Shown here: positions 25,548-64,000 of the stretch, one piece after another | How the letters are laid out: every line of letters starts with the position of its first letter | How positions within the stretch are numbered: position 1 is the stretch's first letter | Origin: Vitis vinifera | Lineage: Eukaryota; Streptophyta; Magnoliopsida; Vitales; Vitaceae | NCBI RefSeq assembly: GCF_030704535.1 | Contig: NC_081822.1 | Span: forward strand, 33,277,501 to 33,341,500 | Reading direction: 5' to 3' | Length of the DNA stretch: 64,000 nucleotides | Notes under the pieces: model-generated | Told to the model about the DNA's origin: nothing | Databases searched by the model: none | What the model saw: only the letters and a program-made list of their open reading frames with translations | Program-made: the position numbers and the translations under genes

Positions 25548-26036
25548 TTAGAGGTAATCATCAATGGAGATGCTCAATGCCTCTTCTCCTCTGAACTCAC
25601 TCCCCTGCCGTGAAGCTCCATAATTATCATCCGCATTCCCCCAAACCTCCATCTGATCCCCACCCTGCGCTCTACTGCAGCCTCCGGCGCCATCCTCCGA
25701 TGACTTTTGGATCGCAAACTGAGCATCAATCGCCAGCCCAGCGTCGGACGCAGCCTTCTGCACCGACCTGGGGGACAGATCAGTCCTCACCTTGGAACTT
25801 ATCACGTGAGGAAAGTTAAGCCCGTCCAAGGACGTGCCCCCACGCAGGCAATACGATGCGATATCGTGGGCCACCGCGGCCGCCTCGGCGGTGGCGTAGG
25901 AGCCGAGCCAGAGGCGGTCCTGCGTGCCCGGGACCCTGATCTCTGACACCCACTTCCCCCATTTTCGCTGGCGAACGCCCCGGAACTTCTTCTTGACGGG
26001 TGAGCTTGAGCTTCCGAACTCCTCTGAGCTACTCAT
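25548..26036 (-). CDS. AP2/ERF transcription factor, ERF018/ERF019 type
   Basis: Single-exon transcription factor of 162 residues, expected in the nucleus, binding GCC-box or DRE-type sites. The AP2 domain spans about residues 18-75, with [15 protein letters not shown], the second-strand [16 protein letters not shown] and YCLRGG...[17 protein letters not shown] is the signature I associate with the ERF018/ERF019 branch of the DREB side of the family. The C terminus SISIDDYL resembles the conserved short tail of that branch. A Ser-rich N terminus and basic KKK precede the domain. The coding sequence is GC-rich against very AT-rich flanks, as is usual for intronless plant ERFs. The first ATG after a good TATA box was used. 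Upstream 150-350 bp contains several GTCAA-like motifs (26114, 26218, 26234) that could be W-box related, but this was not tested. Confidence 0.9.
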
Positions 26037-26088
26037 TCTGGAAGAAAAATTATCAAGGTGATGGTGCGAAAGGTGGGAGGAAGGTGGT

Positions 26089-35600: not shown

Positions 35601-36181
35601 TATTTTCAATCCTAACATTAATTGCAACAATGATGTAGGATCAATCAAATAATTCCATAGTTGGAAAATGTTCAATCTTCAAATACCAATTTGCATCTTC
35701 CCTTAATAACATTAACTAGTGAAATTGCTTACTTGCATTCATAACAAATGGATAGTAGCAATTATAAAAAGGCATTTGAAAATCAAACCTGGGTGAGCTT
35801 CGCATTAAGCAATCCCTCGGAATAAGCCCCTTCAGCCGGAGACCGATTCTCAATGGCGTAGACCTGATCCTTATACCACAACAACAGAATCGTCTCTCCG
35901 TCCTGTATTATCACGCGCCGCTCCCCCTTAGGCAATGCCGACAGCGGCACCACCGGCACCCAGTTCCCGCCATCGCCCGCAGCCGACGACTCCTCCGCCA
36001 CCGACACTTCCGTCGCCTTGCAAGTAATTCTCCGGCTAGAGAGTCCCAGTGTTAAGGCAGAAGAACGGTCATTCCGGGGCAGCGGCGGAGGGAGGTGGTG
36101 CAGCAGGGGTTTCCGGCGACGGAGGGGGGAGGAGAGAGAGAGGAGATGGGGCGTGAGCTTGGTGGCAGCGGCGGTGGCCAT
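32619..36181 (-). CDS. PSB33 / Rieske-like thylakoid protein, 3 exons
   Basis: Chloroplast thylakoid protein that in Arabidopsis (At1g71500, also called LIL8) supports photosystem II organisation. Exons (minus): 36181-35789, 33188-32928, 32807-32619; GT-AG, phase 0, 280 residues (Arabidopsis about 287). Residues 1 to about 55 are Ser/Arg/Pro-rich and fit a transit peptide. The Rieske fold follows (WVPVVPLSALPKGERRVII, then DGCIVCPTTDSTFDLQTG). The ligand pairs of a true Rieske cluster are missing: the first CxH box is replaced by ENRSPAEG, and in the second box only Cys remains with no His. This is known for PSB33, so no 2Fe-2S cluster is expected. The C terminus has a hydrophobic stretch (AAVVGFLLLLDFELLTGKG), a probable membrane segment related to light-harvesting-like proteins, then FLDFLYAVSNAFK. 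Intron 1 is about 2.6 kb. The gene looks intact; a fragment is duplicated near 56.8 kb. Confidence 0.93.
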
Positions 36182-38433
36182 GGAGAAGTGGGAGGTGAGA
36201 GAGAGAGAGGAGGTGAGGGGGGTGGAGTGAGAGGTGTGGGTGGAAAGTGGGGCAGAGAAAGAGAAGGGCTTTGCATGGCCACAAGAATTGGATAAAGCCT
36301 TTTGGTTGGTTCACATTTTATACCATGATTTTTTGTTCAGACCCTTAGGCTTCACGCACTGAACGTTTTGCAAATGGGGATTAGATACAAAGCCATAGGA
36401 CCCGAGAGCACACGCAGTACAAGGTTGAAGATGCTAAATTTTTCTTAGGACAGTGAGGAGGATGGAAGTAAGGGGAAGAGAATGATCATTTGCTAATTAT
36501 ACCTCTTTACTTAAACTTATGTCATGAAATATACAAGGGATAGCTTAGGTTTTGTTACCTAGACTGACCTAACAAATCAGAATAACAACAACCTTTTTAT
36601 GCTGAAAAATTCTACAGTGCCTCCGGAGGTATTATGCCTCCGTTTTGTTTCTATGCTTTATGGCGACTTTTTTTAGGTATAGGGTTTTCTTAGATAACAT
36701 TTAAAAAATAAATAAAAATAGTTCTTAAAAATATTGTATTGAAAAAGCAATTTTCTTGATTTGTTTTTCATGAAAATATTGTATAATGCAAAAATATTTA
36801 AAATATTCTTTACATTTTCAATTATTTCTTATAATATTTTAAGAAAACACCTTCAATATATTCTTAAAAAATATTATGTTTTAAGAATAAATTCTCCATA
36901 AAATTGTTTCGAATAATAAAATCTGTCAACTGAAAATTATTTCAGTTCCAAAGAACAAAAAATTTATTTTCAAGTTCCCAGCCTAACCATTACTATATGC
37001 TAGAATCCAGGTATTAGTATACTTTTCCCCTAATTTCACTTAAATTAATTTCATATATTTGGGCAAACATCCATGTACCGCCAAGTCTGATTTCTCTTTA
37101 ATCCAGAGCAGACCCAAGTTTTATATTTTCATGGGCAAGTTTTCCTAATTTCTGAACGTCATCATATTTGAAAAGTAAATTAAAGAAAGGTATTTATTGG
37201 CTAAACAAATTGAAAAATAAAACTCTTCTTTTCTCTATGTTTTCTCCATTGGTGATAGTTTGCCTGCATTATAAGACAACATTCTCGGTAGAAAATGAAG
37301 AAACAACCTAAGTTATAAGCAATATTTTCAAAACCGAATCGATTATTGAATTAGAAAAGTTACTAGTTTATGATTTACTAGTCGGACCATAATGACTGAT
37401 CATCAAACCCTTTTGGACTCAATCTGTTTCGACTTTTAATGGGTGATTGGTTGTGACGCCTATTGGGCTTCCACAACAAGTGCAAATTTGGCCTGGTTTT
37501 GGGCTTGACTACTCTTAGGAAGCCGGACAGTCCATCCAATTAGATGGTCCAACCATCGACTCGAGCAATTCAACATCGGTATAATATAAAAATGATTCCC
37601 TAGGGTAAACCAGACCGGCTCAAGCAGTTCAACACTGGCTTAATATGAAAACAGTTCCTTAGGGCAAATCAGACTAGAGAGATGGCTGATTGACGGTTCA
37701 ATCGGTTGGACGACTGGTCTGATTTTCAAAACATTGGCTACGAGTATCTTATACATCATTACTAACAAAATGAATGAAAAATGAGCCATGGATTACCTTA
37801 GAACCCATCAAGATGAAAGTACAAAATATGGTATAATATCAATGGAAGAATTTACAATTCTTACGAAGTAACCATTAACTGTAATAGCTCTATCATATTC
37901 AGATAAAAGAACATATCCCAAAAACAATGATCATGATCTGTTTCGTTCTAACATTGGAAGAGAACATATGCCCTTAAGGGTATATGTTTAGTACATGAGA
38001 ATAAGAATGAAAATGGGAATATGAACAGAGATGTATCACAATACCTTGTGCGAAAGAAAACCAAAATCTGTCAAGAGAGTTTGCTAAACAACTCAACATG
38101 TATCAAGGCAAACTTGAAGCAAAAACCAGTAACAACAACCCAACATGTATCAAACTCCAAAAACTAGTCAGCAACACCACTAATACACAACCCAAAAACT
38201 CCAACAGTTATGATGTTTCCAGAATACTAGAAAGTAAGGTATTTTGCTAAGCAACTCAAAGTCAGTTTCAGGAAAAGAAACAAAGGAAGCACACAACTCA
38301 CCAAGAGTTGTTATGGAAAGATTTGGGTGCAAATCAGGCATTTGTCTGGCTAGTTCCTCCTCATCAAGGGATGCTCTGATAATGGCTGCATTGCAAGTGT
38401 TTCTCTGGCCACATCTCTGATTGAGAGTGATCC
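36182..38433. other. Spacer between PSB33 and the TNL gene; source of the 56.7-59.2 kb duplication
   Basis: Contains the PSB33 leader (GA-rich, 36182-36260), AT-rich sequence (36650-37000) and the TNL 3' flank. No gene. Most of 35877-38765 has a diverged copy at 56742-59222 in the same orientation. Confidence 0.7.
37322..37740. mobile_element. Probable small inverted-repeat transposon
   Basis: Begins with CAATATTTTCAAAACCGAATCG and ends GGTCTGATTTTCAAAACATTGG. The ends form imperfect inverted repeats around CAAT(A/G)TTTT, with CGGTT- and GGTCC-type motifs inside. The non-coding length is about 415 bp. A related block lies in the duplicate around 57300-58240, with an extra insertion of about 500 bp there. 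No target duplication was resolved. Confidence 0.4.
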
Positions 38434-41400
38434 TTACAGCAGGGGTGCAGAGGGTTCCCCCTCATCAGCAGAATAGTAATCGGAGTTCTCTGATTCTGAG
38501 CCATCAATATTAGAGCTCCCACTTCCACTAGATCCCTCCCCATGGATTTCTTGAAGGACAACAGATGACTCATTAGGAGGAGGAGAGAAGGGAGAGTAAT
38601 TCAACTCTTCATTAACATACACTAGACCAATCCCACATTCCTTAATTACATTAAGGCGCATGAAGGTGGTTATTCTGAATGAAGCCTTGATGTGAGTGAC
38701 TTGCTGCCAATTGATGAAGTGGGGAAGCGGTACATAAACCAGCCACAAGTGATCTGACTCCACCTTTCCCTTAAGATGATTTGGATAAGTGTAAACATCA
38801 AAGGAGGAAGAAGCGTGACTGGATGTGGAATAGAACAAGGTACATGATCTCCAAAAAAGACCAAAAAAATCAGCAAGTGACACCAGCCTGGGAACAGTGA
38901 CAACACACAAAGCAAGACCCAGGAAGTTGGAATCAAACCAGTTTGGAGGTAGCTCTGCTTTTACTTCACTCCCTGAGCTCTGGTACCTTATCCAGTCTGG
39001 TATTCTACTCCCAAAAACAACTGCACTAAGTGCAGGAACTAAAAGTCCATCCTGTAGAATGAACATGATGAGGATGTTAGTAGAGATAGAAATTGCTTGC
39101 TGCTTTACCATCTTAAATCATTCGACATTTATTTTACACTACCACAAATGAAATTAAATTGTGCATTATTTAGTGGGAAATTGAATTATGATATACCGGA
39201 GGAAAATCTCACCCGATTTATTGGGCAATAGATATGTTCCTTCAATCTGACAGTCATTAGTAGGGAGCTAAATGATTGATTTGAGATTGTTTCCAATGAT
39301 GTGCAATTACGAGCCATTATACTACGTATGCTTGTTGGAAGCTCTGGCAGTGCTTGCAATCTTTTACAATTTTCCAACCCAAGCATTTTCAAGTGAGGAA
39401 GTCGGCTGATATTTGAAGGCAGAGTAACAAAGTTGTTCTCACTTAAATCTAAATCTTCCAGTGAAGATAAGAAGCCAAGACTATCAAGAGTTGCTCCATC
39501 TGATATATTGCAGGCACTTAGGCTTAGAGTTTTTAAGGAGCTTAAACTTGACAAAGGAGACAATACGAAATTACTGAAATTTGAACTTCTTCTTGGCAAC
39601 CACCATGAGGTAGATGGTGGTGGTCCTTTACATCTCTCAAAGGATAATATTTCAAGGTTTCTCAATAAAGAAAAAGAGGAGGGAAGTACCCTAATAGCAG
39701 TTCCATCCGCACAAAATTCCTTCAACATTTCTAAGTTCCCAAAATTCTCAGGTAACTCTTCAAATTTTGAGCAACCAGAAAGAATAAATACTTCAAGGCA
39801 TTTCAAATCACAAATGCAACTTGGAAGACTCTTCAGCATTTTGCAATTTTTCAAACTCAAGAAATTGAGTTTGTTCAAATCTCCAAGTGATGGGTGAACC
39901 TTATACAAAGATATACAACCTTTTAAAACTAACCGTTCAAGGTTGGTAACCCTTGAGAAATCCGGGGTTTCCGTTAAGAATTTGGAGTGCTTGAGATTCA
40001 TGAACTTCAAGTTTTCAAGAACCTGCAGTGAAAGAAACAAGGCTTAAGAAGATGATTTTTCATGAACGGTACATACAATCTAAATAAAATAACATGGATA
40101 AATCATAGCGATACCTTGGTCCCTTTCCAAAGTTGTTTTATTTGGCTATAAGGCATGCTGAGGTCAACAAGATTCTTGAGGTTAAAATCATTGGGCAGTG
40201 ATTTCAAAGGGTATTCATACCAATATAGGTGCCTCAGTTCTTCGCAGTGAAATTTAAAGCCTCGGGAAAAGTGCACTTTACACTTCTCTCTTTTGGAGTC
40301 CATGAGAAAATTCAATGTATAGACTTTGAGCAATCTGAGCCTATTCATCGGTGCAAAAGCTTCATTAGTGAAATTTATCTCTTTCAAACTGGACAAGTCA
40401 AGGGATATTCCTTCAACTTCTTCGGTTCCCTAGCAAAAAAGAGTAATGGATAAGTGAGTAAAATTATATACATACTAAACTACGCAATTAAACAAAGTTG
40501 GTACTTCCTAAGTTGCACTTTAGACCAACCTAATTACCTATATATATAAAAAAAGGGTTTATACATTTGTCTCTTACCGTTTTTTTTGTCAATACATGAT
40601 TTACATCATCATGAATCCACAACCTGCTGCGTTTTCCAGGTTCCTTAGGAGATGCTTCACGAACAATTTCCCGACCCATTTTTTGTAACAAATTGTGCAT
40701 CATCAATTTATTCTCAACAACAGATATAAGAGACTTCTCAATGAGAACTCTTATTCCAATATCAGGGAAGAAACCACAAGATCTGAATATTTCCATTACA
40801 TAATCTTTATCATGCCCTTGAAAGAAACATGCGATGTCCAAAAATATATCTCTCTCGTTATCTTCCAACCCATCAAAACTTACTCGAAGCACATCTTGAA
40901 TTTCCTTCTTAGGAATTTTTTTTAGTTTATCCAACTGACTTTCCCATTGCCGTTTGCTCTTATCAAATAAAAATGAACCTAAAACTCGAAGAGCTAATGG
41001 AAGGCCCTGAGCATAAACCACTATACATTGAGAGAGCTCCACATAATCATCTATAGGATGGGCTTTTTTAAAGGCATATCGACTGAAGAGCTCAACCGCA
41101 TTATCATCATTTAATTTTTCAGCCTGATAGACTTCATTCACCCCATGTGTAACTAGCAACTGCTTATTTCTTGTTGTTATGATGATTCTACTTCCGATAC
41201 CAAACCAACCATGCTTCCCAATCAAGTCTTCTAATATTTTTGAATTGTTCACATCATCAATGACAATGAGAACCTTTTTAGAACAAAGCAAAGCCTTTAT
41301 AGAGATGCATCCTTTTGTATTTAGATTTTCATCTTCCAATAGTTGAGAAAGATATTTCTTTTGCAAGCTAAGGAAATCTTGCTTTTCCAAATAATCACTG

Positions 41401-42281
41401 ACATTTTCAAGAAAGCAGCAAGCTTCAAATTGATGAGAGATTTGGTTATAAACAGCTCTGGCAAGGGTTGTTTTACCTATGCCGCCCATGCCCCAAATCC
41501 CCACCATGCGAACATCTAGAGACTCGGTAAATAGCAGGGATTTTATTTCTCGTATGCTAGATTCTATTCCAACTAGGTTCTGATCAGCATAATTTGAGGA
41601 TCTACTAAACAATTTATTCCAAATATAAGTGGCAATTCCCTTGATAAGCATAGGCTCATGCCTGCCAAATTTGAAGTATAAACATGAAATTAGTTCATCA
41701 CTCAAAAAGAGAAAGGTAAAATTAAAGTAAACAAGATAATTAATGAACAGATGCATATATTGAAATTAGTGATATGAGGATGAAGATGATGATGGGAAAG
41801 CTGTAGAGAATTACTTATTCCTGGAATCCCAACCGGATAAATTGGCAACTTGAGTGAGAGCATCCCTCCAAATCGGCACCCTCTCCATAGTTCTCAAATT
41901 TTCTTCATGTTTAGCCAGTGCTTCTCCAAATTTTCCGTTGTGCTGTCTTACATGCGAGGGATCCACATCGTAGAAAATGGGGAGAACCCTCTGTCCCATG
42001 GTTCTCATGCACTCTAGAATCTTCACCAGCTCCTCCAAACACCACCCGGAAGATGCATAATTTTCTGACAAAACAACGAGAGAAAACTTGGAGTTTTGAA
42101 TAGCCGCAACAAGCGCAGAAGAAATGACATCACCCCTCTCAAGCTTGTCATCGTCAATGAACGTGTTGATTCCTTTGGTGCGTAGCTCCTTATAGAGATG
42201 GGCAGTGAAGCTATTGCGGGTGTCTTCTCCTCTAAAGCTCAGGAACACATCATAGCTCCGTTGGAAAGAAGGATCAGCCAT
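38434..42281 (-). CDS. TIR-NBS-LRR (TNL) immune receptor, 5 exons
   Basis: Intracellular NLR receptor, likely for pathogen effectors. Exons (minus): 42281-41815 (TIR), 41661-40578 (NB-ARC), 40429-40115, 40022-39213 (LRRs), 39051-38434 (C-JID-like post-LRR domain); GT-AG, 1,097 residues. The start MADPSFQRSYDVFLSF was chosen over an in-frame Met 33 codons upstream because TIR N termini are short. The TIR domain has YDVFLSFRGEDTR and SSGWCLEEL with the catalytic-position Glu. NB-ARC: P-loop GMGGIGKTT (about 213), kinase-2 VLIVIDDVN, GSRIIITTRN, GLPLALRVLG and the TNL-type FLDIACFFQGH. The MHD position reads MHN (residues 477-479, codon 40694-40692). LRRs include LERLVLKGCISLYKVHPSLG and LEDLDLSENNFVTLP. 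The post-LRR region has VFGSRIPDWIRYQSSGSEV and an acidic C terminus. All frames are open, so it appears intact. The closest described class is N-like/RPV1-like TNLs. Confidence 0.94.
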
Positions 42282-42539
42282 TACGAGGCGGCAGAGAAGA
42301 TGGATTCTGAAATTTGAGTTGTGAAAGTCAAGTCTGAGCAAAACTCGCAGAGTGTAAGGAACAGGCAGTTTCTGCAACAAGTAAATTAAATGCCAGTGAG
42401 ATCATCGAAGACAAAGGGTCCTTGTTGACCCACCTGCTTTCTATAGACCATTATTTATTTATTTATTTATTTTGTCTCAACATGCTATAAGAGAATTTAT
42501 TTTTAAGTGAGGGATATTAAAATATTAATTTATTTTTCA

Positions 42540-43965
42540 AAAATCTTGCAATGGGCTCACTTCCCAGCCCACGCATTGCGCTCACTTTAAAGGTAAAACC
42601 TCGAGCTTGGGAAAACCATGTTTTACATTATAAACCGAACATATTTAATATATATGTTCATTCTCAGCATTACATATATAAGAGCCCGTTTGGTAGTGAT
42701 TCTAGTGGAAGTGTTTTTATTTGAAGTGTTTTCTACTGTAGTGTTTATGTGAAAAACACTTTTATGATAATCAGAAAAAATGATTCTAAAGTGTTTTTGA
42801 TAATATATTGTATAAATATAAAAACACTTTTAATATTAATAAATTACCAAAAAGGACATACAATTTTAATTAAAAAAAATGGTATGATAAACAAAAAAAC
42901 TTTTTATTAATGAAAAAACATCTAAATCACTAAAAAAATAACATTGAATAAAAGATAATTTTAAAATTAAAACAATATATGATTTTACCTATTAATTTCT
43001 AAAAAAGAAAAAGACTTTTCTAATTAAAAATAATAATTTTTTTATCACTATACTAAAATTTTAAAAAATATTTACAAAAAACATCTAAATCAATAAAAAA
43101 AAAAAAAACATTGAATAAAAGATAATTTTAAAAGTAAAACAATATATGACCACTGGGGGGCATTTTTGGAATATTTCAAAAAAATTGAAGTGTTTTTAAA
43201 AAAAAACACCTGTTAAGTGATTCTCTAAAAATCACTTTAAGTGTTTTTCCAGATTTTCAAAAGTGTTTTTTAAAATTTGCCAAACACTTTATTTTCATCC
43301 CAAAAACACTTAAAAGTGTTTTTAAGGGTAGAAACACTTTTAAAAATCACTGTCAAACGGGCTCTAAACCATATATCTATATAAACAAATATAATTATAT
43401 ATATAAATTAATTCAAATAAAATTATTATAAATAAATTAATTTTGATTACTGTGTTAAATACAAAATAAATATAAATTTATGAATAAAATTATCAAAATT
43501 TTAAAATAAAAAATACTTATACAAATTATCATTATTTCTTCTATATTATTAAGTACATTCAAATTTTTGACCCATCGACATTTTACGTCAAAATATCCGT
43601 ATCTATGATATATTCCTAAAATCAAAATATCAATATACTCATGATTATCGATATTTTTTTATCATTGGATTTTGAAATGGTGTGGAACAAAGTAAAGTCT
43701 TGAGTTGGGACTAAATTATTGTGTAATGTTTTATATTTATAAATATTTAAAAAATTAAAATAAATATAAATCCTAGTTAAAATTTATTTGTGAGATGATA
43801 AACATGAATATATTATTTGTGGGAAAAAAAAAGCAATAGTAATTTACAAGACGATAAAATGATGGAATGTATAACGGTTAAAGTTTGATAAATTTAAATG
43901 ATAAAATTTTATTTTATTTTTACATAAAAACTATTAAAGTTTTTATGCAAAAGACATTGTAGAAC
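42540..43965. repeat. TNL upstream flank, copy 1 of a local duplication
   Basis: Matches 46510-47400 in the same orientation. Shared stretches include CTTGCAATGGGCTC at the start, then AAACCGAACATATTTAAT/AAATCGAACATATTTAAT, and later TTTGTGAGATGATAAACATG and GCAATAGTAATTTACAAGAC. This copy carries the MITE at 42682-43364, absent from the other. Mostly AT-rich, non-coding. Confidence 0.8.
42682..43364. mobile_element. PIF/Harbinger-type (Tourist-like) MITE with TAA target duplication
   Basis: Terminal inverted repeats GAGCCCGTTTGGTAGTGATT and (reverse complement of the right end) GAGCCCGTTTGACAGTGATT differ at two of 20 positions. TAA lies directly outside both ends (42679-42681 and 43365-43367), the 3-bp target duplication typical of PIF/Harbinger elements. 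683 bp, AT-rich, with many GTGTTTTT-like internal motifs and no transposase. The paralogous flank at 46.6 kb lacks it. Confidence 0.88.
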
Positions 43966-44482: not shown

Positions 44483-46390
44483 TGTTAATATGAGATTATT
44501 TTTTTGATTGATTGTAATTGATCTGTTTACACATAGTTTCCTATAATAGGCTAACTGATGTTTTATATATATGTATTTTTTTCTTTGTAAGTCAAAACAT
44601 TCAATATACTGAAGATTTCCAAAATATTCTGTTTTACTTTGTTTTTGACATGGTATCAAAGCACCAAACTTGGTGGCTTTGAATTCTTCCAAATATTTTT
44701 GCAACCTAATTCCTTGTTACAGTTGCTGCCATGGACATTAATAACAGAATGAGATTGTTGACATCGTCTAAGGCTACCATAGAAGCCTCACATTCCTTCT
44801 CTCTACACCACTCGAACCATCCGAGTATGGTACTCATCTCTAAGGTACTTGAAGGAGATAACTACAACACGTGGAGTCGGGGTATGAGAATTAGTTTGAG
44901 TACTAAAGATAAGATTGGATTTGTCATAGGTTCAATCAAGCTGACTCCAACTCCATTGACATATGATAGTTTTCCTTCTTAGCAATGATGCAATGATGCA
45001 ATGATATGGTGATCTCATGGTTATTGAATTTCATTCATCCAGACATAATCAACAGTGTGATTTATGTTGAAACTTCAACAAAAGTTAGGGTAGATCTAAA
45101 AGAATGCTTTTTTCAAGGAAATAATTCAAGAATTTATTAAAACAAACGAGAAATCATGGAACATAGGTGAGCCAACAATCAATTTCGGTTTACTACACAA
45201 AGCTTTAAGCTTTTTAGGATGAACTTTCATCCTATCATGAAGTGTTATCCTACTCTTGTGGAGGGTTGGAGAAACTCAAGGAAAAGGATGAGAAAGAAAG
45301 AGTTATGCAGTTTCTCATGGGATTGAATGATAGTTATGCTACCATTCATGGACAAATCTTATTGATATGCAACCTCTACCTGATACATGTCGAGTTTACT
45401 CACTTGTCCTTCAATAAGAAAAACAGGTTGAAGTTTATATCAAACATGGGAACATGAACCGTCATGCCATGCTTGCAGATTGGCACAACAAGGTGACTCC
45501 AGCACACTAGGTTTAAAGGTAAAAAACTTTGCTACATTGCTCTTATTGTGACGGTGATTATCATAACATTGAGAAGTGTTACTACCTATATTGCTTTCCA
45601 ATAGGTCACAGGCTTCATGGGAAGAACGTGAAGTCTCCCAATCAGTGTCACTAAAATGCAAACAATGTGAAGGTGGAAACAAACAAGGTCATGGAGATAA
45701 AAGCAAAATATCTTCCAACAAGTGACGGATTAAGGCTCACAACTGAGGAATATGACCAACTAATGGCCATGATTCAAAAAAACAATGATGGTAACTCACA
45801 ATATTTTGCAAATGCCACAAGTATAAATATATCATCCAAAATCATTCAAGATTACCTACACTCAGAAATATGTGTTGGATTATTGATAGTGGAGCCGCAA
45901 ATCATGTGACTTCTTCAACTGAATTACTAGATCTAAAAAATTTGCATAAGATAACCACCATTAGTTTGCCAGATGGTGGTCAAACACATATTAAGTCGAT
46001 TAGTTCATTGAATATTTCACCCCACATTAAACTTGATGAAGTACTCAAAGTTTCACAATTTCAAGTTAATTTACTATCATTTAGTAAACTAACATGGACA
46101 TTTAAATGTATAGTGATGTTCTTTTCCAATTTTTGTATTGTGTAAAACACTGCTACAAGGAAGACTATTGGCTTGGGCAAGCAACATAATGACCTCTACT
46201 ACCTAGCACAAGACCAAAATCTAGCCTTGGCTTATGCCATTTGTAAACATCCCAATCTTTGGCATTAGCATCTTGGGCACTCGTCATCCAGTTCTCTTCA
46301 AGTTCTTGCTAAAATTAATCTTGAAATTTATTTTGATTCCAAGCATGTTTGTGAAATCTACCCTTTAGCCAAACAAACTTGTTTATAAGA
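44483..46390 (+). mobile_element. Degenerate Ty1/copia fragment with primer-binding site, gag and protease remnants
   Basis: A primer-binding site TGGTATCAAAGC lies at 44651-44662. The preceding 168 bp, TGTTAATATG to TTTGACA, could be a 5' LTR. Then gag N terminus at 44731-44982 (HHSNHPSMVLISKVLEGDNY), a middle gag piece near 45242-45400 (VMQFLMGLNDSYATIHGQIL), and a protease site near 45880 (CWIIDSGAANHVTSS). Remnants of the GAG-pre-integrase domain occur to about 46390 (LAKQTC). Stops and frameshifts are frequent; integrase, RT, RNase H and 3' LTR are missing. gag is recognisably related to the element at 49931-54965, but the LTRs are not alike. Confidence 0.8.
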
Positions 46391-46891: not shown

Positions 46892-47400
46892 ATTTATTTT
46901 AACAAAACAATCTCAATATTTCTATTATTATTATTTTTATATCATTTTTTTTAGAGATTTTCATAATATTTTCATGAGTTTTGATCAATTTTTTATTCAT
47001 CGATATTTGTATGAAAATATTCGCATCTCTAATGTATCAGTAAAATTAAATAACTGATATATTCATAATTATCCATATTTTCATCCTTATTTTTTGAAAG
47101 CACATGGGGCAAGGTCATCCTTGCTTTTTGAAAGGATGTGGAGCAAGGTAAAGTTTAATGTTGTAAACTAAATTATTGTATTATGTTTTATATTTATAAA
47201 TATTTTAAAAATTAAAATAAATATAAATCCTAATTAAAATTTATTTGTGAGATGATAAACATGAATCTATTATTTGTGGGAAAAAAAATGCAATAGTAAT
47301 TTACAAGACATTAACATGATGGAATGTATAACAGTTAAAATGAGATAAATTTAAATGATAAAATTTTATTTTATTTTTACATGAAAACTATTAAAAATGT
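46510..47400. repeat. TNL upstream flank, copy 2
   Basis: Counterpart of 42540-43965 without the MITE, with a (TA)n expansion inside. Its right side diverges after about 47400. The LRR remnant and copia fragment lie between the two copies. Confidence 0.75.
46847..46889. repeat. (TA)n microsatellite
   Basis: About 21 TA units inside the second TNL-flank copy. Confidence 0.85.
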
Positions 47401-49033
47401 TGTACTATATCGTATTTTTAATGTATTTATGTTATAAATTCAATAGATAAATGTTGTACTTACATTTTGTAACAAATCTAATAGTATTAGAAACATTGCT
47501 TTATTCTATTATATTATTAACATCAATGCATTTTTTATTATATCTATAACTTGGATATAATATTATTTTATTAAAATATTAATAATATAAAACTAATATC
47601 TTAATAGCAATAATAAGAATAATAATAATAATAATTTAATTAATCTTAATATAACATATAAAGTATAAAATGAAAAAAAAAGAATAAATTTTTAATAAAG
47701 TTTACAAGTTCTAAGAACGAAAAAATATAAATTATCTTCTAAGGTTTCTTTGTAGTAGTAATAAAAATATAATAATATTATTTTTAATATAATATTAAAA
47801 ATATGAATAATAATCATAAAAATAATAAATAATATTAATAAGAATGATACTAATAATAATATGAAAATTTAAAATACTAATATCATAAATAATAATATTA
47901 AGAGTAGTATTAATATTTAATAATAATAATAATACAAAAGAAAAAAATAAAAAAATAAAGTTTAGATAGGATATAATTGAAAATTTCTTTCAAATGATTA
48001 CCCGAGGAGTAGAATTGGTCAACATGATGACTTTTAAAAAGGATTACCACTTTCCGCCCACCGTTTTGATAATTCTCTATTTTATATATATATATTTAAT
48101 GTTTCTGAAGTTTTGACTTTTTGAGTAGTAGCCTCTTGGGAGGAAAGATAAAAAACCTTTATCTTTGAATTATAAAAAAGACAACGGATGCTTAAATAGA
48201 TAAGATGGGTTGAATTTTAAAAACGGTGGGTGGGACCATGTATTTTGTAGTGAAGGCACTGAAGGAAATAAAACAAGGGAAAAGAGCACCAAAGGCACCG
48301 ACGTGGCCGAGAAATGGAGATTTGGACCATCTGGTCAAAGCGCAGTGGGTTGGAATTTGGGAACGGAAGCAAAGCAAACAAGGAAAAAGGACGCTGTCCC
48401 ACACAGCAGGCTGCGAGAGCCATAAAAGGAGTCTTGGCTTGGGAAGGCGAGATCCCAAACATTTGAGGGTCCTGCACCAGCCGGAAGCAAAGCAATCAAG
48501 CACCGATCCTCTGGATCCACACCCATCAACTGCACCAGAATGTCTATCGAACCCTATCATCTTGCAGGTATAGTTCCATCGGTTCACGCCCAGATGTTCG
48601 GGGTGCCATACAGGAATCTGATGATTTAGTAAACCACAACAGAGTTGGCGGTACCTTCAGGCGCCTCACTATCCAGGTAAGCTCGATCCATTTTCTAGAA
48701 CAACGGTTAATTTTAAAGATAAATAATTCAAAAACTTTTCTGCCCAAATAAAGCTGCTACCAGCAAATCAAGAATTGGTTACTCCATCTACTTGTCTATA
48801 AGCCGTCTTACAGTGTCACTCTTCTTATATTAATTCATTGTTCTACAAGAGTTACAGGATAAGATGTAGTTTGAATCAATAGTTGGTGTAACAGAAGAAA
48901 ATTATTGTTATGCATTGTACCACTTTTTGCTTCTCATTTTTCTCATAGAAAACTTCTCTCTCTATCTCACTTTGTACAGGATGAGCTTAATTTTGATTCT
49001 TGGTGGAGTTCGTTCTATAGTGGTGAGACTGAA
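47401..49033 (+). other. AT-rich spacer and 5' leader of the FAR1-type gene
   Basis: 47401-47960 is extremely AT-rich with ATA/AAT repeats. From about 48180 base composition becomes normal. A probable non-coding first exon ends CTATCCAG at 48676, followed by GTAAGC. The matching acceptor TTTGTACAG ends at 48979, so the leader seems to have one intron (48677-48979). A small upstream frame of 29 codons starts at 48540 (MSIEPYHLAG) within the first exon; it is not in frame with the main product. Confidence 0.5.
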
Positions 49034-49930
49034 ATGGCTATTAATGTAAATGGTGATGAGATTGGAACATTGGTTAATGTAAATGAGAAAAATCCTGAAG
49101 ACGATGATCAGATACCACGGAGAGGGATGGCGTTTTCTTCTGAGTTAGAAGCTGAAGAATTTTGTAAAAAGTATGCCAAGAGAATTGGTTTTACAGTAAG
49201 AAAAGGAAAGGTACAAAGGAAAGCAAATGGTACACTGAAAGGGCGATGCTTTCTTTGTTCATGTGAAGGCTTCCGGACCAAGAAGCATCCCAACCAGGGA
49301 ACAAAGTATCAGAGATCAGAAACAAGAACAGGTTGCAATGTCCAGATCCAAGTCAAACTTGACAATGGACAATGGGTGATCACAAAACTTCATCTTGAGC
49401 ATAATCACAGGTTGCAATGCCTAGATACACTTAATTGGCCTTCAGATGAAGTGGAAGGTGCTTCGGGAGCTGACAAGGTTTGTCAAAATTTTCAACTGAA
49501 ACTACCAAAATATTTTTCCTTGGGCACTTTTACATCAAAATTAATCTTTTTTGTTGGTTAATTCCAAGCACAAGTTCTATACTTTTCCTTCTCTTTTTTG
49601 GGCTTTAGGAGATCCAAACTTCCTTCGCTCCAACTGAAGCTGAGGACACAGACAAAACTCTCACAGATCCTAACACAGCTGCTGCAGGGCTTCTTGAGAT
49701 GGTTGAGGGATCTGGTGTAACTTCCAATACCAGGGAGTCGATTTGGCAGCAAATATGGACCAAATATGGAGACGTAACTGCCAATTGCTCCTTTACAGCA
49801 CCCCAGTTTGTAGAGATCATCAAAGGTTCCATACTGCAGATTGTGGAGCTGATGCAGAAGAATACTGCCTGTAGCCTGTCTGGTGCAGACACCTACTTCA
49901 TTGATAGAGCATTGAGTGATTTGGAGAGGG

Positions 49931-50140
49931 TGTTGGAAAGTCAATCTTCCTAAATCTTCCATATTAAGAATAGATTATCTGTATATGTTAGTTTTCCTAT
50001 TGTAATTCCTGACTTATAGTTGAATAGTCTAGAATATGGTAAGCTAATTCCTGACTTGTAGAAAAAGATCTCAAACCTCCTTGTATAGATACACACTTCA
50101 ACATCAATAATATTAATTCAGCCAATTCTTCTTCTTTTCA
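49931..50140 (+). repeat. 5' LTR of the 5.0-kb copia element
   Basis: 210 bp, TGTTGG...TTTTCA, immediately followed by the primer-binding site. TATA-like CTTGTATAGATAC near 50082. Confidence 0.93.
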
Positions 50141-50219
50141 TGGTATCAGAGCAGGACTAAAATCCTGATTTATTGCTACACTCTAATCTCTCGTATAGCA
50201 TCTCTTTTCTTCAATCATC

Positions 50220-53200
50220 ATGGCAAAATTAGAGATTCCTACGGATTTCTCAAAGGCAGATCTCTCCAATCCCTATTTCACTCACCATTCAGATCACCCA
50301 GGTTTGGTTTTGATTTCCAAATCTTTGAATGGAGACAATTATTCAGCTTGGAAAAGGGCTATGATTCTAGCTTTAAATTCCAAGAACAAATTGGGTTTTG
50401 TTAATGGCTCGATCAAGGCTCCTTCAGAAGAAATTGATCCTGAAGGTTATGCGACTTGGTCACGGTGTAACGACATGGTTCACTCCTGGATCGTCAATAC
50501 TCTCAATCCAGAAATTGCGGACAGTGTAATCTATTATTCTACTGCTCATGAAGTTTGGGAAGATCTCTGTGAGCGATTCTCTCAGAGCAATGCGCCTCGC
50601 ATCTTTGAAATTCAGCGAGATATTGCTTGTCTTTGAAAAGAGCAACTCTCTGTCTCTGCCTATTACACAAAATTGAAAGGCCTGTGGGATGAACTGGCTT
50701 CCTACAACGCTGCATCACATGGGGCACAACAAGATCAACAAAAATTGATGCAATTTCTGATGGGTTTGAATGAATCTTACAGTGCTATTCACGGGCAAAT
50801 CCTCCTGATGAATCCTCTTCCTTCTGTCCGCCAAGCATACTCCTCTGTCTCTCAAGAAGAAAAACAACGCCTCCTCACTTCGACGAACGCAGCAGCGGAA
50901 TCTGCCGCAAGTGCTGCTATGGCTGTGCGTAGCAACGACAAGTCTTCGGCAACTTGGAAGGATGGAATAGATCGATCGAACACAGGAAGGATGGAACCGA
51001 CTGATCACCCCTCTAGTTCTCAAAATTTCCGGGTGAATCGGTCTTCTCAGGGACAAGATGGCAGACCATTTTTTGATCAAGATTGGCGCCGCATGGGTTC
51101 TGGAAGAGGACGCCCCCAGTGCTCGTATTGTGGAGATATGGGTCATTGGGTCCAAAAGTGTTTTCAACTACATGGATACCCACCAGACCATCCAAAAGCA
51201 AGAATAAACTTAGGCTCAAACTCAAATCGAAATAAAAGTTTTTCTGCAGCTAACCAAGTTTCTGAGGCAGATGAAGGGAAACCTGCAGTTGCATTGTCAG
51301 AAGCCCAACTCAAGCAACTTTTGTCACTTCTTAATAACCAAGATGAAAACTCTAGTTCCAAAGTGAATGCTGTAACAAAGCCAGGTTTGTCCAAAGTCGC
51401 TTCTCGCAATTGGATTATTGATAGTGGGGCGACGGATCATATTACTTCATCCTCTAAGTTATTGCATAAAGATAAAAATTGCTCGTTACCGCTCGTATTG
51501 TTGCCTAGTGGAGAAAAAACGAATATTGTTACGAAAGGGACTTTGCCTCTGAATTCCGTCTATTATCTGCATGATGTCTTATCTGTGCCTACATTCAAAG
51601 TTGATTTAATATCAGTTAGTCGTTTGACAAGAGGTCTAAATTGTTCAGTGACGTGTTTCCCTTATTGGTGTATTTTGCAGGATCTGGCTACGAGGAGGAC
51701 GATTGGTTTGGGTAAACAACGTGACGGACTATACTATTTGGTGGCACTAGCGACGGAGAAATCTTTAACCAACCATTCCTCATCCACAAACCAACCAGCC
51801 TGCAATCTCGCCATCTCTTCCACCGATCTCTGGCACAGTTGCTTAGGCCATGTATCACCTTCTCGTTTGAGTTTCATTGCCAAGAATTTTTTGAATTTTT
51901 TTGTTCAGTCCAATAATGCTTGCCCTATATGTCCTTTGGCTAAGCAAAGTTGTTTACCTTTTGGTACTAGTGCTATTTCTTCTACAAAACCTTTTGAGAT
52001 TATTCATTGTGACATTTGGGGTCGTTATCGACACCGTTCTCTGTTTGGTGCCCATTACTTTCTCACTATTGTCGATGATTATACACGTTTCACTTGGATA
52101 TTTTTAATGCGATATAAAGATGAAGCACAATCACTTTTAAAACATTTCTTCAGCTATGTGTTCACACAATTTGAATTTCGCATTAAAACTTTTCGAAGTG
52201 ACAATGGTAGAGAATTTACCTCACTTCGTTCCTTTTTTTCAAGATAATGGTGTCATCTTTCAGCATTCTTGTGTTTACACGCCTTAACAAAATGGGGTTG
52301 TGGAACGCAAACATCGTCATATTTTACAAGTAGCCCGAGCTTTGAAATTCCATGCTCAAGTTCCCACTCAATTTTGGGGGGAGTGTGCTCTCATTGCCGT
52401 ACACATCATCAATCGGTTACCTTCACCAATATTGTCTTTCAAAACTCCTTTTGAATTGCTTTACTCAAAACCACCTTCTTACTCCATCTCCGTGTTTTCG
52501 GATGTTTAGCCTATGCCACCAATGTTCACACCTCTCACAAATTTGATTACCGTGCCATGCCATCCATCTTCATTGGTTATCCTGTTGGTCAGAAAGCATA
52601 CAAATTATTTGATTTATCAACCAAAAAGGTCTTTACTAGCCGAGATGTCAAATTTCATGAAGATATTTTTCCTTATGTCTCTCTCAAGCCCAACTCTACT
52701 CTCTCTTCGTTCACCCATAATTCTGGCCCAATCCCCTTGGTGGCCCACGACATCTCTTCCTCCCTTGACTCTACTTCTCACGCACTTTCCCCTCTTCTTT
52801 CCAACCACACAAGCACACTGTCTCCCACCACAGAAAATGACGACTTTTCCTCTCTTTCTCGACATTCCGAACTCATTATCGAACCTTCTTCTCAGATTGA
52901 TCCAAACCCTTCACCACCGCCTTCTACAACTCTAGTATCGCCTTCTCCGGTGCCACCGTTTGCATCCATCCCGTCCGTTCCTCCAGCCGAGACACACTCA
53001 CCCAAACCAGCCACTCCTCTTCGTCGCTCCAGCCGCCATATCGCCCCGCCAATCAAGCTCCACGATTATGTTTGTTCCCACGTTTCCTCCAATCAATCGT
53101 CTTTCTTGATTCCAGGTCCAACTAAAGGTACACATCCACTGGCCAATTATGTTTCTTATCACAGATATAAGCCTGCATATAGATCTTTTGTTGCTCAACA

Positions 53201-54748
53201 TAGTGCTGTCACAGAACCCAGGTCTTATTTAGAAGCAGCCGCTCATCCTGAGTGGCAGGAGGCAATGTGTTCTGAATTGCAGGCTCTCCAAGCTAATGAC
53301 ACTTGGTTTCTCACTCCACTTTCGGCCGGTAAGACAACGATTGGCTGTCGATGGGTGTATAAAATTAAACACCGTTCAGATGGGTCTATTGAGCGTTACA
53401 AAGCACGATTGGTAGCGAAAGGCTTTACTTAATTAGAAGGTGTCGATTATCAGAATACCTTTGCCCCCACCGCCAAGATCATATCTGTCCGCTGCTTGCT
53501 TGCATTGCCGCAGCCCGTGGCTGGTCTCTTCATCAAATGGATGTTAACAACGCTTTTCTTCATGGCAACTTACATGAGGAAATATATATGTCTCCGTCGC
53601 TAGGGCTTCGGCGACAGGGGGAGGAAAACTTGGTATGTCGCCTTCATAAATCACTCTATGGTCTGAAACAAGCTTCTCGCCAGTGGTTCGCCAAGTTCTC
53701 AGAAGCTATTCAATCCGTCGGTTATGCACAATCTCGAGTCGATTATTCTTTGTTCACCAGAAAACAAGGCAAGTCCTTTACTGCCCTCTTGATATATGTT
53801 GATAATATTCTGATTACTGGAAATGATCCTGTGAGCATTGCTACAACAAAAAAATTTCTACATAGTCATTTTCATCTCAAAGATCTGGGTGATTTAAAAT
53901 ACTTTCTTGGCATTGAGGTTTCTGTTTCTAAAAATGGGATTTTTATTTCCCAATGTAAGTATGCATTAGAGATTATTGAGGATGCAGGATTGTTGGGCGC
54001 TGCCCCTATTGATACACCTATGGAACGAGGATTGAAATTGTCTGATAAGAGCGATTTGCTCAAGGATCAAGGTCGTTATAGGAGATTGGTTGGAAGGTTA
54101 ATATATCTAACTATGTCGAGGCTAGATATCACTTATGCAGTTCATGTGTTAAGCTGGTTTATGCATCAACCGAGAAAGGCTCATATGGAAGCAGCGTTCA
54201 GAGTTGTACGTTATCTCAAGAATACACCTGGTCAGGGTCTGTTCTTCTCTTCGAATAATGATTTTAGATTGAGAGCCTACTGTGATTCTAATTGGGCAGG
54301 TTGTCCACTTACTAGAAGGTCCACTGTAGGCTACTGTGTATTCCTTGGACCTTTATTGATTTCTTGGAGATCAAAGCGACAGAAAACAGTGTCACTCTCT
54401 TCAACCGAAGCAGAGTATCGTGCAATGACAAGAGCTTGTTGTGAGTTGACATGGCTTCGGTACCTTTTGAAAGATTTGGTTGTTTTACATCAGGAACCTG
54501 CCTTGCTGTATTGTGACAACAAGGCAACGTTGCACATTGCAGCTAACCCTGTTTTCCATGAGCGTACTAGACATATTGAGATGGATTGTCACTATATTAG
54601 GGACAAGATCCAAGATGGTTCCATTATTACAAGACATGTGAGCTCAGCACACCAACTTGCAAACATTCTAACTAAACCATTGGGAAAGGAGATTTTTGCT
54701 CCTATGATTCGCAAGTTGGGAGTGCAGGATATCCACTCTCCAACTTGA
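50220..54748 (+). pseudogene. Degraded copia gag-pol polyprotein
   Basis: gag begins at 50220 with HHSDHPGLVLISKSLNGDNY. An in-frame TGA (50634-50636) interrupts it, then the same frame continues to 52247. That part holds the zinc knuckle CSYCGDMGHWVQKC, the protease site WIIDSGATDH, the pre-integrase box LWHSCLGH...CPICPLAKQ and the integrase core start (HCDIWG, TFRSDNGREF). A frameshift in a T run near 52235, a stop at about 52286 and another shift near 52505 break integrase. RT starts near 53209 (WQEAMCSELQAL), has a stop at 53430-53432 and a shift near 53500, then is open from 53537 to 54748. The RT active site reads YVDN instead of YVDD. RNase H (CDSNWAGCPLTRRST, SSTEAEYRA) and the C terminus are well preserved. 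Not autonomous. Confidence 0.88.
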
Positions 54749-54755
54749 GGGGGAG

Positions 54756-54965
54756 TGTTGGAAAGTCAATCTTCCTAAATCTTCCATATTAAGAATAGAT
54801 GATCTGTATATGTTAGTTTTCCTATTGTAATTCCTGACTTATAGCTGGATAGTCTAGAATATGGTAAGCTGATTTCTGATTTGTAGAAAAAGATCTCAAA
54901 CCTCCTTGTATAAATACACACTTCAACATCAATAATATTAATTCAGCTAATTCTTCTTCTTTTCA
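54756..54965 (+). repeat. 3' LTR of the 5.0-kb copia element
   Basis: 210 bp, preceded by the purine tract and followed by AGGG and the resumed host exon. Confidence 0.93.
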
Positions 54966-55008
54966 AGGGCGCGGGTTAAGGTTGATTGGTTAAGAAGCCC
55001 ATTTGTTG

Positions 55009-55270
55009 GAGTGCAACCTTTAGTTGAGTATGCACAAGCAGAGGGCAAGAGGGACGTGATTCGTAGGCGCTTGAATGAGAAGATAGCTGAAGTAGAGCAG
55101 CTTTATCTGGAGTTGGACCAAGCAGAGGCCAGTTTACAGGAGTGCAACCTTTAGTTGAGTATGCACAAGCAGAGGGCAAGAGGGACGTGATTCGTAGGCG
55201 CTTGAATGAGAAGATAGCTGAAGTAGAGCAGCTTTATCTGGAGCTGGACCAAGCAGAGGCCAGTTTACAG
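55009..55270 (+). repeat. 131-bp tandem duplication in the last exon of the FAR1-type gene
   Basis: 55009-55139 and 55140-55270 are identical except for one base (GAGTTGGACC versus GAGCTGGACC). 131 is not a multiple of three, so it shifts the frame. The repeat junction (CAG then GAGTGCAAC) resembles the natural downstream sequence (CAG then GAGCTGCAAC), suggesting slippage or microhomology-driven duplication. Confidence 0.95.
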
Positions 55271-55336
55271 GAGCTGCAACACCGAATACCAGACTGGCTT
55301 AGGATTGAAGATACACTTGGTAAACTATTATTGTAG

Positions 55337-56741: not shown

Positions 56742-56905
56742 CACAACAACAGAATCGTCTCTCCGTCCTGTATAATCACGCGCCGCTCCCCCTTGGGCAA
56801 TGCCGACAGCGGCACCACTGGCACCCAGTTCTCGCCATCCCCCGCAGCCGACGGCTCCTCCGCCACCGACACTTCCGTCGCCTTGCAAGTAAGTCTCCGG
56901 CTAGA
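56742..56905 (-). pseudogene. PSB33 exon 1 fragment
   Basis: Corresponds to roughly residues 48-101 of PSB33 with a few substitutions. It has no start codon and no transit peptide: a deletion between two AGAG motifs fused the residue-48 region to the leader. The other exons are absent. Confidence 0.85.
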
Positions 56906-58922
56906 GAAAGACAAGGGCTTTGCATGGCCACAAGAATTGGATAAAGCCTTTTGGTTGGTTCACATTTTATACCATGATTTTTCGTTAAGACCCTTAGGCT
57001 TCACACACTGAACTTTTTGCAAATGGGGATTAGAAACAAAGCCATAGGACCCGAGAGCACGCGTGGTACAAGGTTGAAGATGCTAAATTTTTCCTAGGAC
57101 GGTGAGCAGGATGGAAGTAAGGGGAAGAGAATGATTATTTGCCAAATATACCTCTTTACTTAAAATTATGTCATGAAATATACAAGGGAGAGCTTAGGTT
57201 TTGTTACCAGTTACCAAAGGGGACTTCGATAGAGGAGGACTTATTCTATCTTTCCTTCCTTAACCTTCTCAAAGCAATAAATTACTTCCATTTGTAATAA
57301 TTAGAACCAGATCCGTTATTGGATTGAAAAAGTTATCGATTTGTGGTTTATTGATTGGATCGATGGTTGAACCACAATAGAATCAATGAAGTAATAATTA
57401 TATAATTTATATATTATATAAAATAAAAAAATAATTATAAAAAATTTAGAATATATAATAAAAATTTTAAATAATATTTCAATTTTATATTAGATATATC
57501 AAATTAAATTATAAAGATAAATGTAAATATATTAATATTTGAAACCTTATTAAATAGAATATGTATAATATTTAAATATAAAGTATTTAAGATGAAAATA
57601 AAATCATAGTATTTAATTTTATCTCGTTGTATTTTATTACTTTAAAATTATTATATTAATTATTTACATTATTTTCATAATTATTATTATACAAATAGAC
57701 ATGAACGTAAATATTTACATGAAAATATTTGAAAAAAAAACCATTAATCTTTCTATATATTTAGTTTTACAGCATTATTGTACATGGATGGCATATAGCT
57801 CAATGGCCTTGCCCTTGATTTTAAAGCTGACCTCAAATCCACCTGCAGCATGCACAACTTTTTTTCCTTACCACCTGGAATCAATCCCACATCGGATTGG
57901 GTTGGGCTTTGGCTCGTTTAAACCCTCTTGGGCTCAACCGGTTTGGGCTTTTAATGGATGATTGGCTGTAGAGCCTATTGGGCTTCTACAACAAGTGGAA
58001 GTTTGGCCCAGTTTTGGGCTTGACTGCTTCTTAGGAAGCCGAACGGTCCGTCCGGTTCAATGATCCAACCATGGCTCAAGCGGTTTAACACCGATTTAAT
58101 ATGAAAATAGTTCCCTGGTGCAAACCAGACCGACTTGAGCAGTTCAAGCCCGGTTTAATATGAAAATGGTTCCCTAGGGAAAACTCGACCTGAGAGATGG
58201 CCGATAACGGTTTAGTCCGGTTTTCAAAACATTGGCTGCAAGTATCTTATACATCATTACTAACAAAATGAAGATAAATGAGTCATGGATTACCTTAGAA
58301 TCCATCAAAATGAAACTACAAAATATGGTATAAAAATCAACCAAAGAATTTACAATTCTTACAAAGTAACCATGAACTGTTAACAGCTCTATCATATTCA
58401 GCCAAAAGAACCCATCCCCAAAAAAAAATTATCATGATCCTTTTTGTTCTAACATTAGAAGAGAACATATGCCCTTAAGGGTGTATGTTCAGTATATGAG
58501 AATAAGAATGAAAATAGGAATTTGAACAGAGATATATCACATTAGCATGTGGGAAAGAATAACCAAAATCTGTCAAGAGTGAGTTTGCTAAACAACTCAA
58601 CATGTATCAAGGCAAATTTAAAGCAAAAACCAGCAACAACCACCCAGCATGTATCAAACTTCAAAAGCTTGTCAGCAACACCACTACTGCACAACCCGAA
58701 AACTCCAATGGTTATGATGTTTCAAAAATATTAGAAACAAAGGAACAAAGTCAGTTTCAAGATAAGAAACAAAGGAAGCACACAGCTCACCAATAGTTGA
58801 TATCGGAAGATTTGGGTGCATATCAAGCATTTGTCTGCCCGGTTCCTCCTCGCCAAGGGATGCTCTGATAATGGCTGCATTGCAACCGTTGCTCTAGCTA
58901 CATCTCTGATTCAGAGTGATCC

Positions 58923-59222
58923 TTACAGTAGGGGTGCAGTGGGTTCCCCCTCATCAGCAGAATAGTAATCAGAGTTCAATATTAGAGCACCCGCTTGCAC
59001 TAGGTCCCTCCTCGTGGATTTCTTGAAGGACAACAGATGACTCATTAGGAGGAGTGAAGATAGAGTAATTCATCTCTTCATTAACATACACTATACCAAT
59101 TCCACATTCCTTAATTACATTAAGGCCCATCAAGGTGGTTATTCTGAATGAAGCTTTGATGTGAGTGACTTGACACCAATTGATGAAGCGGGGAAGCGGT
59201 ACACAAACCAGCCACAAGTGAT
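58923..59222 (-). pseudogene. 3' end fragment of a TNL (post-LRR domain)
   Basis: Matches the last exon of the TNL at 38434-39051 (LPRFINWCQVTHIKASFRIT, VIKECGIGIVYVNEEMNYS). A 16-bp loss near 58976 relative to the source shifts the frame before the C terminus. TIR, NB-ARC and LRR parts are missing; the fragment ends at the duplication edge. Confidence 0.88.
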
Positions 59223-59244
59223 GTGACGCCTATTAATGTTTTAT

Positions 59245-63296: not shown

Positions 63297-64000
63297 TGTT
63301 AAGGTTGAAGTCATTCCACATCAGAAGAAAACAAAAAAGGGAGAACTTCCTTGTCCTATGAAAGAAGGCTTCCACCCCTTATACTATTCATCCTAAAAAA
63401 GGATTTCATTCTTTTGTAAGCTTTTATGTTCTTTCATTTTAATTGAGAGGGAGGTTGAAATTTTGTCTTCATATAATGGATATTTTTTTTATCTTGTCCC
63501 GTGGAAGTTTCCATTTTAATTAAGAAGGTTTTATCATGTAAGTATTTTTGTCCATTATTTTATTTATTGTTTTATCTATTGTTTTATTTATTATTCCATT
63601 TTTATTTTTTATTATTCTATTTTCAAATTATCGCTCTAGGTATCATTTCATTACAATGGTATTAGAGCTTTGGTTTAGGACAATAGATGGTTACTTGTGT
63701 GGTTAGTACATGTCTAGGAATGTTCTATCAAAAAGGGCAATTAGAGCCTAAGGAGAGTGGGACCACTATGACTTATCTACTTTCCTCGAGACTTTTTTGG
63801 TGTATTTAACACAACCACTTACTCCTATTCTGGGTTACTAATCACTATAAAAGTGAAACAAATGACGACAAAATTTGAAATAGAAAAATTCAATGGGAAC
63901 AATTTTGGGCTGTGGAAAATAAAAATGAAAGCCATCTTGAGGAAAGAAAATTAACTAGAAACAATTGGTGAAAGACCAAAAAATGTTGAAGATAAAAAGT
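63297..64000 (+). mobile_element. 5' part of a Ty1/copia element (Tnt1-like), cut by window end
   Basis: Probable 5' LTR 63297-63655 (359 bp, TGTTAAGG to TTACA). A primer-binding site TGGTATTAGAGC follows at 63658, then a gag start at 63862. The 3' LTR and target duplication lie outside the window; the base pairs before the LTR are TATTT. Confidence 0.75.
63862..64000 (+). pseudogene. copia gag N terminus, incomplete
   Basis: MTTKFEIEKFNGNNFGLWKI is the conserved start of Tnt1/Retrofit-type gag. A TAA at 63952-63954 interrupts the frame after about 30 codons. The remainder continues to the window edge. Confidence 0.75.

Follow-up and report, generated by a model that had tools for sequence, protein, structure and literature searches.

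A copia retrotransposon and a frame-shifting duplication in a Vitis vinifera gene that probably joined a FAR1 domain to a PEARLI-4-like region

Introduction

A FAR1-domain gene of Vitis vinifera carries two disabling lesions, namely the insertion of a copia element and a tandem duplication that shifts the frame. In this study, we analysed a stretch of 64 000 nucleotides (the window) and conclude, with a probability of about 0.86, that a gene encoding a FAR1 domain and a PEARLI-4-like region received a copia insertion in its second exon, was separately disrupted by the frame-shifting duplication and now yields a truncated protein at most. In the course of events that we propose, the ancestral gene product would have had a PEARLI-4-like helical region after its FAR1 DNA-binding domain. 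The PEARLI-4-coding part of the second exon would then have been hit by a copia LTR retrotransposon, with a short target-site duplication (TSD) as its trace, and this copy of the element probably decayed in place. Separately, 131 bp bordered by GGAG would have been duplicated in tandem and have shifted the frame further downstream. The present allele would thus give at most a truncated protein with an intact FAR1 domain and a seven-residue end supplied by the LTR, and the downstream part is probably silent. The insertion event itself is ordinary, as copia insertions in plant exons are well known; the ancestral architecture of a FAR1 domain and a PEARLI-4-like region is the most interesting part of this account and was not found in the literature searched. 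The features of the locus are as follows, with positions counted in the window.

48980..49033, + strand: possible in-frame upstream extension of exon 1 (DELNFDSWWSSFYSGETE), 5' UTR or coding (sequence)
49034..49477, + strand: coding exon 1, FAR1 DNA-binding domain at residues 42-128 (PF03101)
49478..49608, + strand: putative intron, GT...AG, phase 0 (sequence, composition)
49609..49930, + strand: exon 2 to the left of the element, coding for the first half of the PEARLI-4-like region (PF05278 only when joined to the right flank)
49927..49930, + strand: left target-site duplication, AGGG (sequence)
49931..50140, + strand: 5' LTR; the host frame reads in as VLESQSS, stop at 49951-49953 (sequence)
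50141..54755, + strand: copia internal region with gag, integrase and reverse transcriptase parts (Pfam of pieces; stops, motifs)
54756..54965, + strand: 3' LTR, differing from the 5' LTR at 8/210 positions
54966..54969, + strand: right target-site duplication, AGGG (sequence)
54970..55138, + strand: exon 2 downstream part, second half of the PEARLI-4-like region, containing the first duplication copy at 55008-55138 (sequence, Pfam)
55139..55269, + strand: second copy of the 131 bp duplication (one difference; frame shift)
55270..55336, + strand: probable former C-terminal coding end, closed by a stop at 55334-55336 that is in frame with the second duplication copy

The host gene

Exon 1 matches the FAR1 domain (PF03101) with 75.3 bits (E 6.4e-21, cut-off 28.1), and a Pfam scan of exon 1, the exon 2 pieces and the joined tail gave neither a MULE transposase nor a SWIM match. 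The original prediction of a host product with a FAR1 domain and without a transposase domain is thereby borne out. No MATH match was reported for these host pieces. DUF5575_N and Transglut_N also appeared on exon 1, both below cut-off. A PDB search with exon 1 returned no match at E up to 1. A search for relatives of exon 1 covered viral contigs (10 stretches matching the pattern, none confirmed) and one with the joined tail covered prokaryote genome contigs (62 matching stretches, none confirmed); both collections are uninformative on plants.

The model of a single gene with a FAR1 domain and a tail, together with its predicted splice sites, is drawn from the reading frame, the base composition and the intron borders. 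The GC content of the putative intron is 0.298, versus 0.408 and 0.472 in the adjoining exon parts. Translation may begin elsewhere than at the ATG at 49034: the extension at 48980..49033 follows an acceptor-like AG and is continuous in frame with this ATG, and the open frame, reaching upstream to the acceptor-like site at 48980, could join in phase to an ORF that runs up to a donor-like site at 48676. The sole Pfam match of that upstream ORF (48467-48676) is TRP_2, with 12.4 bits versus a cut-off of 27.

Insertion site and rejoined frame

The two LTRs are 210 bp each, have TG...CA ends and differ by seven transitions and one transversion, eight differences in all, as had been counted approximately before. 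When the host flanks are joined at 49930 and 54970, the sequence reads DLER-A-RVKVDWL in frame. It had been claimed that removing 49931-54969, the element plus one AGGG, leads from DLER to ARVKVDWL, and a direct re-reading of the join agrees. With the LTRs, the TSD and the copia domains in place, the interruption of a FAR1-domain gene by a copia element is likewise upheld, the exon hit being the second, the last that was recognised. Copia target-site duplications are usually 5 bp, and AGGG is one short of this; a 5 bp duplication that had lost one base would give the identical empty site, and the join is therefore independent of the length of the TSD.

When both strands of the window are counted, 7698 of 127 600 start positions (6%) have an open frame of at least 60 codons, so that openness of the frame by itself is weak evidence, and we rejected frame continuity as sole proof of the join. 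The stronger evidence is a profile match that runs over the junction. The joined tail (164 amino acids, taken to the end of the first duplication copy and without the last residues) matches the Pfam family PEARLI-4 (PF05278) with 26.0 bits and an E-value of 8.5e-6. This alignment is colinear over 117 residues, from protein positions 44-160 to profile positions 65-185, and junction codon 108 lies inside it. Together with the frame join, it supports the earlier claim that the downstream part belongs to the interrupted gene.

Single pieces (the left part, the left part with the LTR end, the right part and the part with the second copy) gave no PEARLI-4 match in the Pfam scan. HMMER filters hide weak matches, and this result is partly such an effect, since a control with the halves in swapped order scores 15.5 bits through 20 residues that belong to the left half. 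When the right half was shuffled, one of five joins matched PEARLI-4, with 12.1 bits, and none was reported for the other four; shuffling of the left half left no match in any of four joins. The colinear match thus exceeds its controls, with 26.0 bits against 15.5 for the swapped order and at most 12.1 among the nine half-shuffled joins. Its score lies under the Pfam gathering cut-off of 29.9 bits, and we name the region PEARLI-4-like because of this and because the filters mask weak matches. MerR, PV-1, YopE and AAA_25 were reported on C-terminal pieces below cut-off and were rejected for this, and MerR was reported in all four joins with a shuffled left half.

The copia element and the age of the insertion

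A primer-binding site opened by TGGTATCAGAGC, which we take to be of the tRNA-iMet type, and a purine tract before the 3' LTR are present. Four pieces of the element match, in copia order, copia gag, Pol_BBD, pre-integrase, integrase core, an SH3-like domain and RVT_2 in Pfam; PF14244, PF00665, PF25597 and PF07727 follow in that order on four separate pieces, with integrase before reverse transcriptase. Two LTRs with TG...CA ends, a 4 bp TSD, and gag and then integrase ahead of RVT_2 identify the element as a Ty1/copia LTR retrotransposon. The copy is non-autonomous, with stops and frame changes in place of intact open frames. In the gag frame, stops precede the reverse transcriptase at 50634, 52245, 52452 and 53430, and the stretch 52245-52457, inspected by eye, is not readable as integrase in that frame. 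Profile positions 1-43 of the RVT match are read in the gag frame and positions 62-243 in another, in the piece from 53393. The catalytic motif at 53795 is YVDN, YVDD being usual. The TATA-like motif differs between the two LTRs, with TATAGATA at 50084 in the 5' LTR and TATAAATA at 54909 in the 3' LTR; the latter is more canonical and adjoins the orphaned end of the gene.

The LTRs have diverged by a K2P distance of 0.039. With Poisson limits on the eight differences, this would correspond to 1.5 My (0.6-2.9) at 1.3e-8 substitutions per site per year, 2.8 My (1.2-5.4) at 7e-9 and 7.9 My (3.3-15.0) at 2.5e-9. The insertion had been described as recent; with this divergence, and with the element's own frames broken, that description is not supported. 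Empty alleles could nevertheless be segregating in a large population.

The tandem duplication

Downstream of the element lies a second lesion, absent from the earlier reading: a 131 bp tandem duplication, 55008-55138 and 55139-55269, whose copies have a single difference (55113 versus 55244) and whose match extends four bases further. GGAG occurs at both edges. The length of 131 bp is not divisible by three, so the frame is shifted and the rejoined host frame meets a TAG at 55152-55154. A different frame is used by the ORF that ends at 55336, and the claim that removing one segment brings the entire gene back into frame up to 55336 is not supported. Short near-identical tandem copies can come from assembly, but the copies here are not identical at 55113/55244, and having GGAG at both edges is in keeping with a genuine duplication; we hold an assembly artefact to be very improbable.

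Two disabling lesions in one exon raise the question of whether the duplication or a loss of expression had made the locus a pseudogene before the element landed, as a passenger. The two lesions differ in divergence, with 1/135 (or 1/131) differences between the copies versus 8/210 between the LTRs, and with a Fisher p of 0.096 (or 0.16) their order is not settled. The point estimate, however, would make the duplication the younger of the two, and the duplication alone alters only the end of the protein, so a passenger element seems rather unlikely to us.

Fate of the present allele

If the predicted splice is right, the product of the present allele has 262 residues with a complete FAR1 domain. 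Its frame stops at 49951-49953 after VLESQSS, seven residues read from the LTR, the first codon being shared with the host. A protein of this kind, a FAR1 domain with a tail ending in VLESQSS, might be expressed from a transcript that ends in the 5' LTR and might act as a small FRF-type regulator. The frame is open from 49034 to 49953 through the predicted splice and encodes all 262 residues, an AATAAT motif occurs late in the LTR at 50106 and FAR1-only FRF proteins are described in passages of PMC6000157. An open frame of 766 bp is nevertheless unsurprising at about 2% change since the insertion (an estimate, not a computed figure), and AATAAT is short and easily met by chance in AT-rich DNA. 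Expression of such a regulator appears unlikely, and the fuller scenario, in which an ancestral FAR1 and PEARLI-4 architecture was turned by the copia insertion into an FRF-like FAR1-only protein with both its stop and its transcript end supplied by the LTR, is a doubtful one. An LTR-terminated transcript could make an FRF-like protein; otherwise the locus would be a decaying pseudogene, its function presumably lost. Both a surviving truncated regulator and a passenger element refine the preferred explanation, a FAR1 and PEARLI-4-like gene broken by the insertion and the duplication, and are compatible with it.

The surrounding window

The window was compared with itself as DNA at E up to 1e-3 and as protein at E up to 1. 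At the DNA level, the LTR pair and the tandem duplication are the only matches, apart from self-matches, of the host pieces, the element pieces and the 5' LTR. At the protein level, matches of the element pieces also include two diverged copia relatives, one at 44767-46385 and the other at 13878-15172, the latter a diverged copia reverse transcriptase region on the minus strand, and a weak place at 63886-63951 (E 0.94). A direct repeat, 43661-43938 and 47117-47395 (90% over 280 bp), flanks the gag/integrase relative at 44767-46385; together they may represent a more ancient copia element a short way upstream of the FAR1 gene.

Three similar blocks (84-96%) are shared by 35877-38758 and 56742-59227, the second copy lying just downstream of the FAR1 gene, and two of them overlap a minus-strand ORF at 35783-36310 that has a Rieske-like domain. 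On the same strand, ORFs with TIR, NB-ARC and LRR domains follow in order at 39186-42401 and form a TNL-type disease resistance gene, and an AP2-domain ORF at 25548-26087 is probably an ERF-type transcription factor. With the FAR1 domain, these gene types by themselves point to a plant genome.

Comparison with known systems

As an exon insertion of a Ty1/copia element, the event has the expected LTRs, primer-binding site, purine tract, gag-integrase-reverse transcriptase order and TSD, and departs from known cases in nothing basic, although this copy is defective and its TSD is 4 bp. The one paper obtained for FHY3, FAR1-related genes and retrotransposon insertion deals, in the insertion passages seen, with the ages of LTR insertions in pineapple and with no insertion in an FRS gene (PMC8774480).

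The open literature searched held no paper on a FAR1 and PEARLI-4 architecture, an absence that weighs little as it comes from one library; the only paper returned for FAR1 with PEARLI deals with an Arabidopsis G-protein transcriptome (PMC6456573). FRFs, subgroup VI of the FRS/FRF family, carry the FAR1 domain only, without MULE transposase or SWIM, according to passages of PMC6000157, and the host gene resembles them in this respect. Most grape members of subgroup VI contain just the two FAR1-domain motifs, and the passages on this subgroup make no mention of PEARLI (PMC12112247). The ancestral product would differ from the FRFs by its PEARLI-4-like region after the FAR1 domain, which the passages on FRFs do not describe. 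It differs from full-length FRS proteins, as its scanned pieces gave neither a MULE transposase nor a SWIM match. With PEARLI-4 and MATH-PEARLI-4 proteins it shares the colinear PF05278 match of 117 residues. In the passages seen in these sources, the neighbour of PEARLI-4 is a MATH domain (PMC10218331), and about half of class IV, the class of AtRTM3, has the two together (PMC3664471); the partner here is FAR1, whereas theirs is MATH. If the proposed gene is real, the fusion of FAR1 to a PEARLI-4-like region would bring a new partner to a transposase-derived regulator family, and the truncated allele would offer a natural test of the function of the tail.
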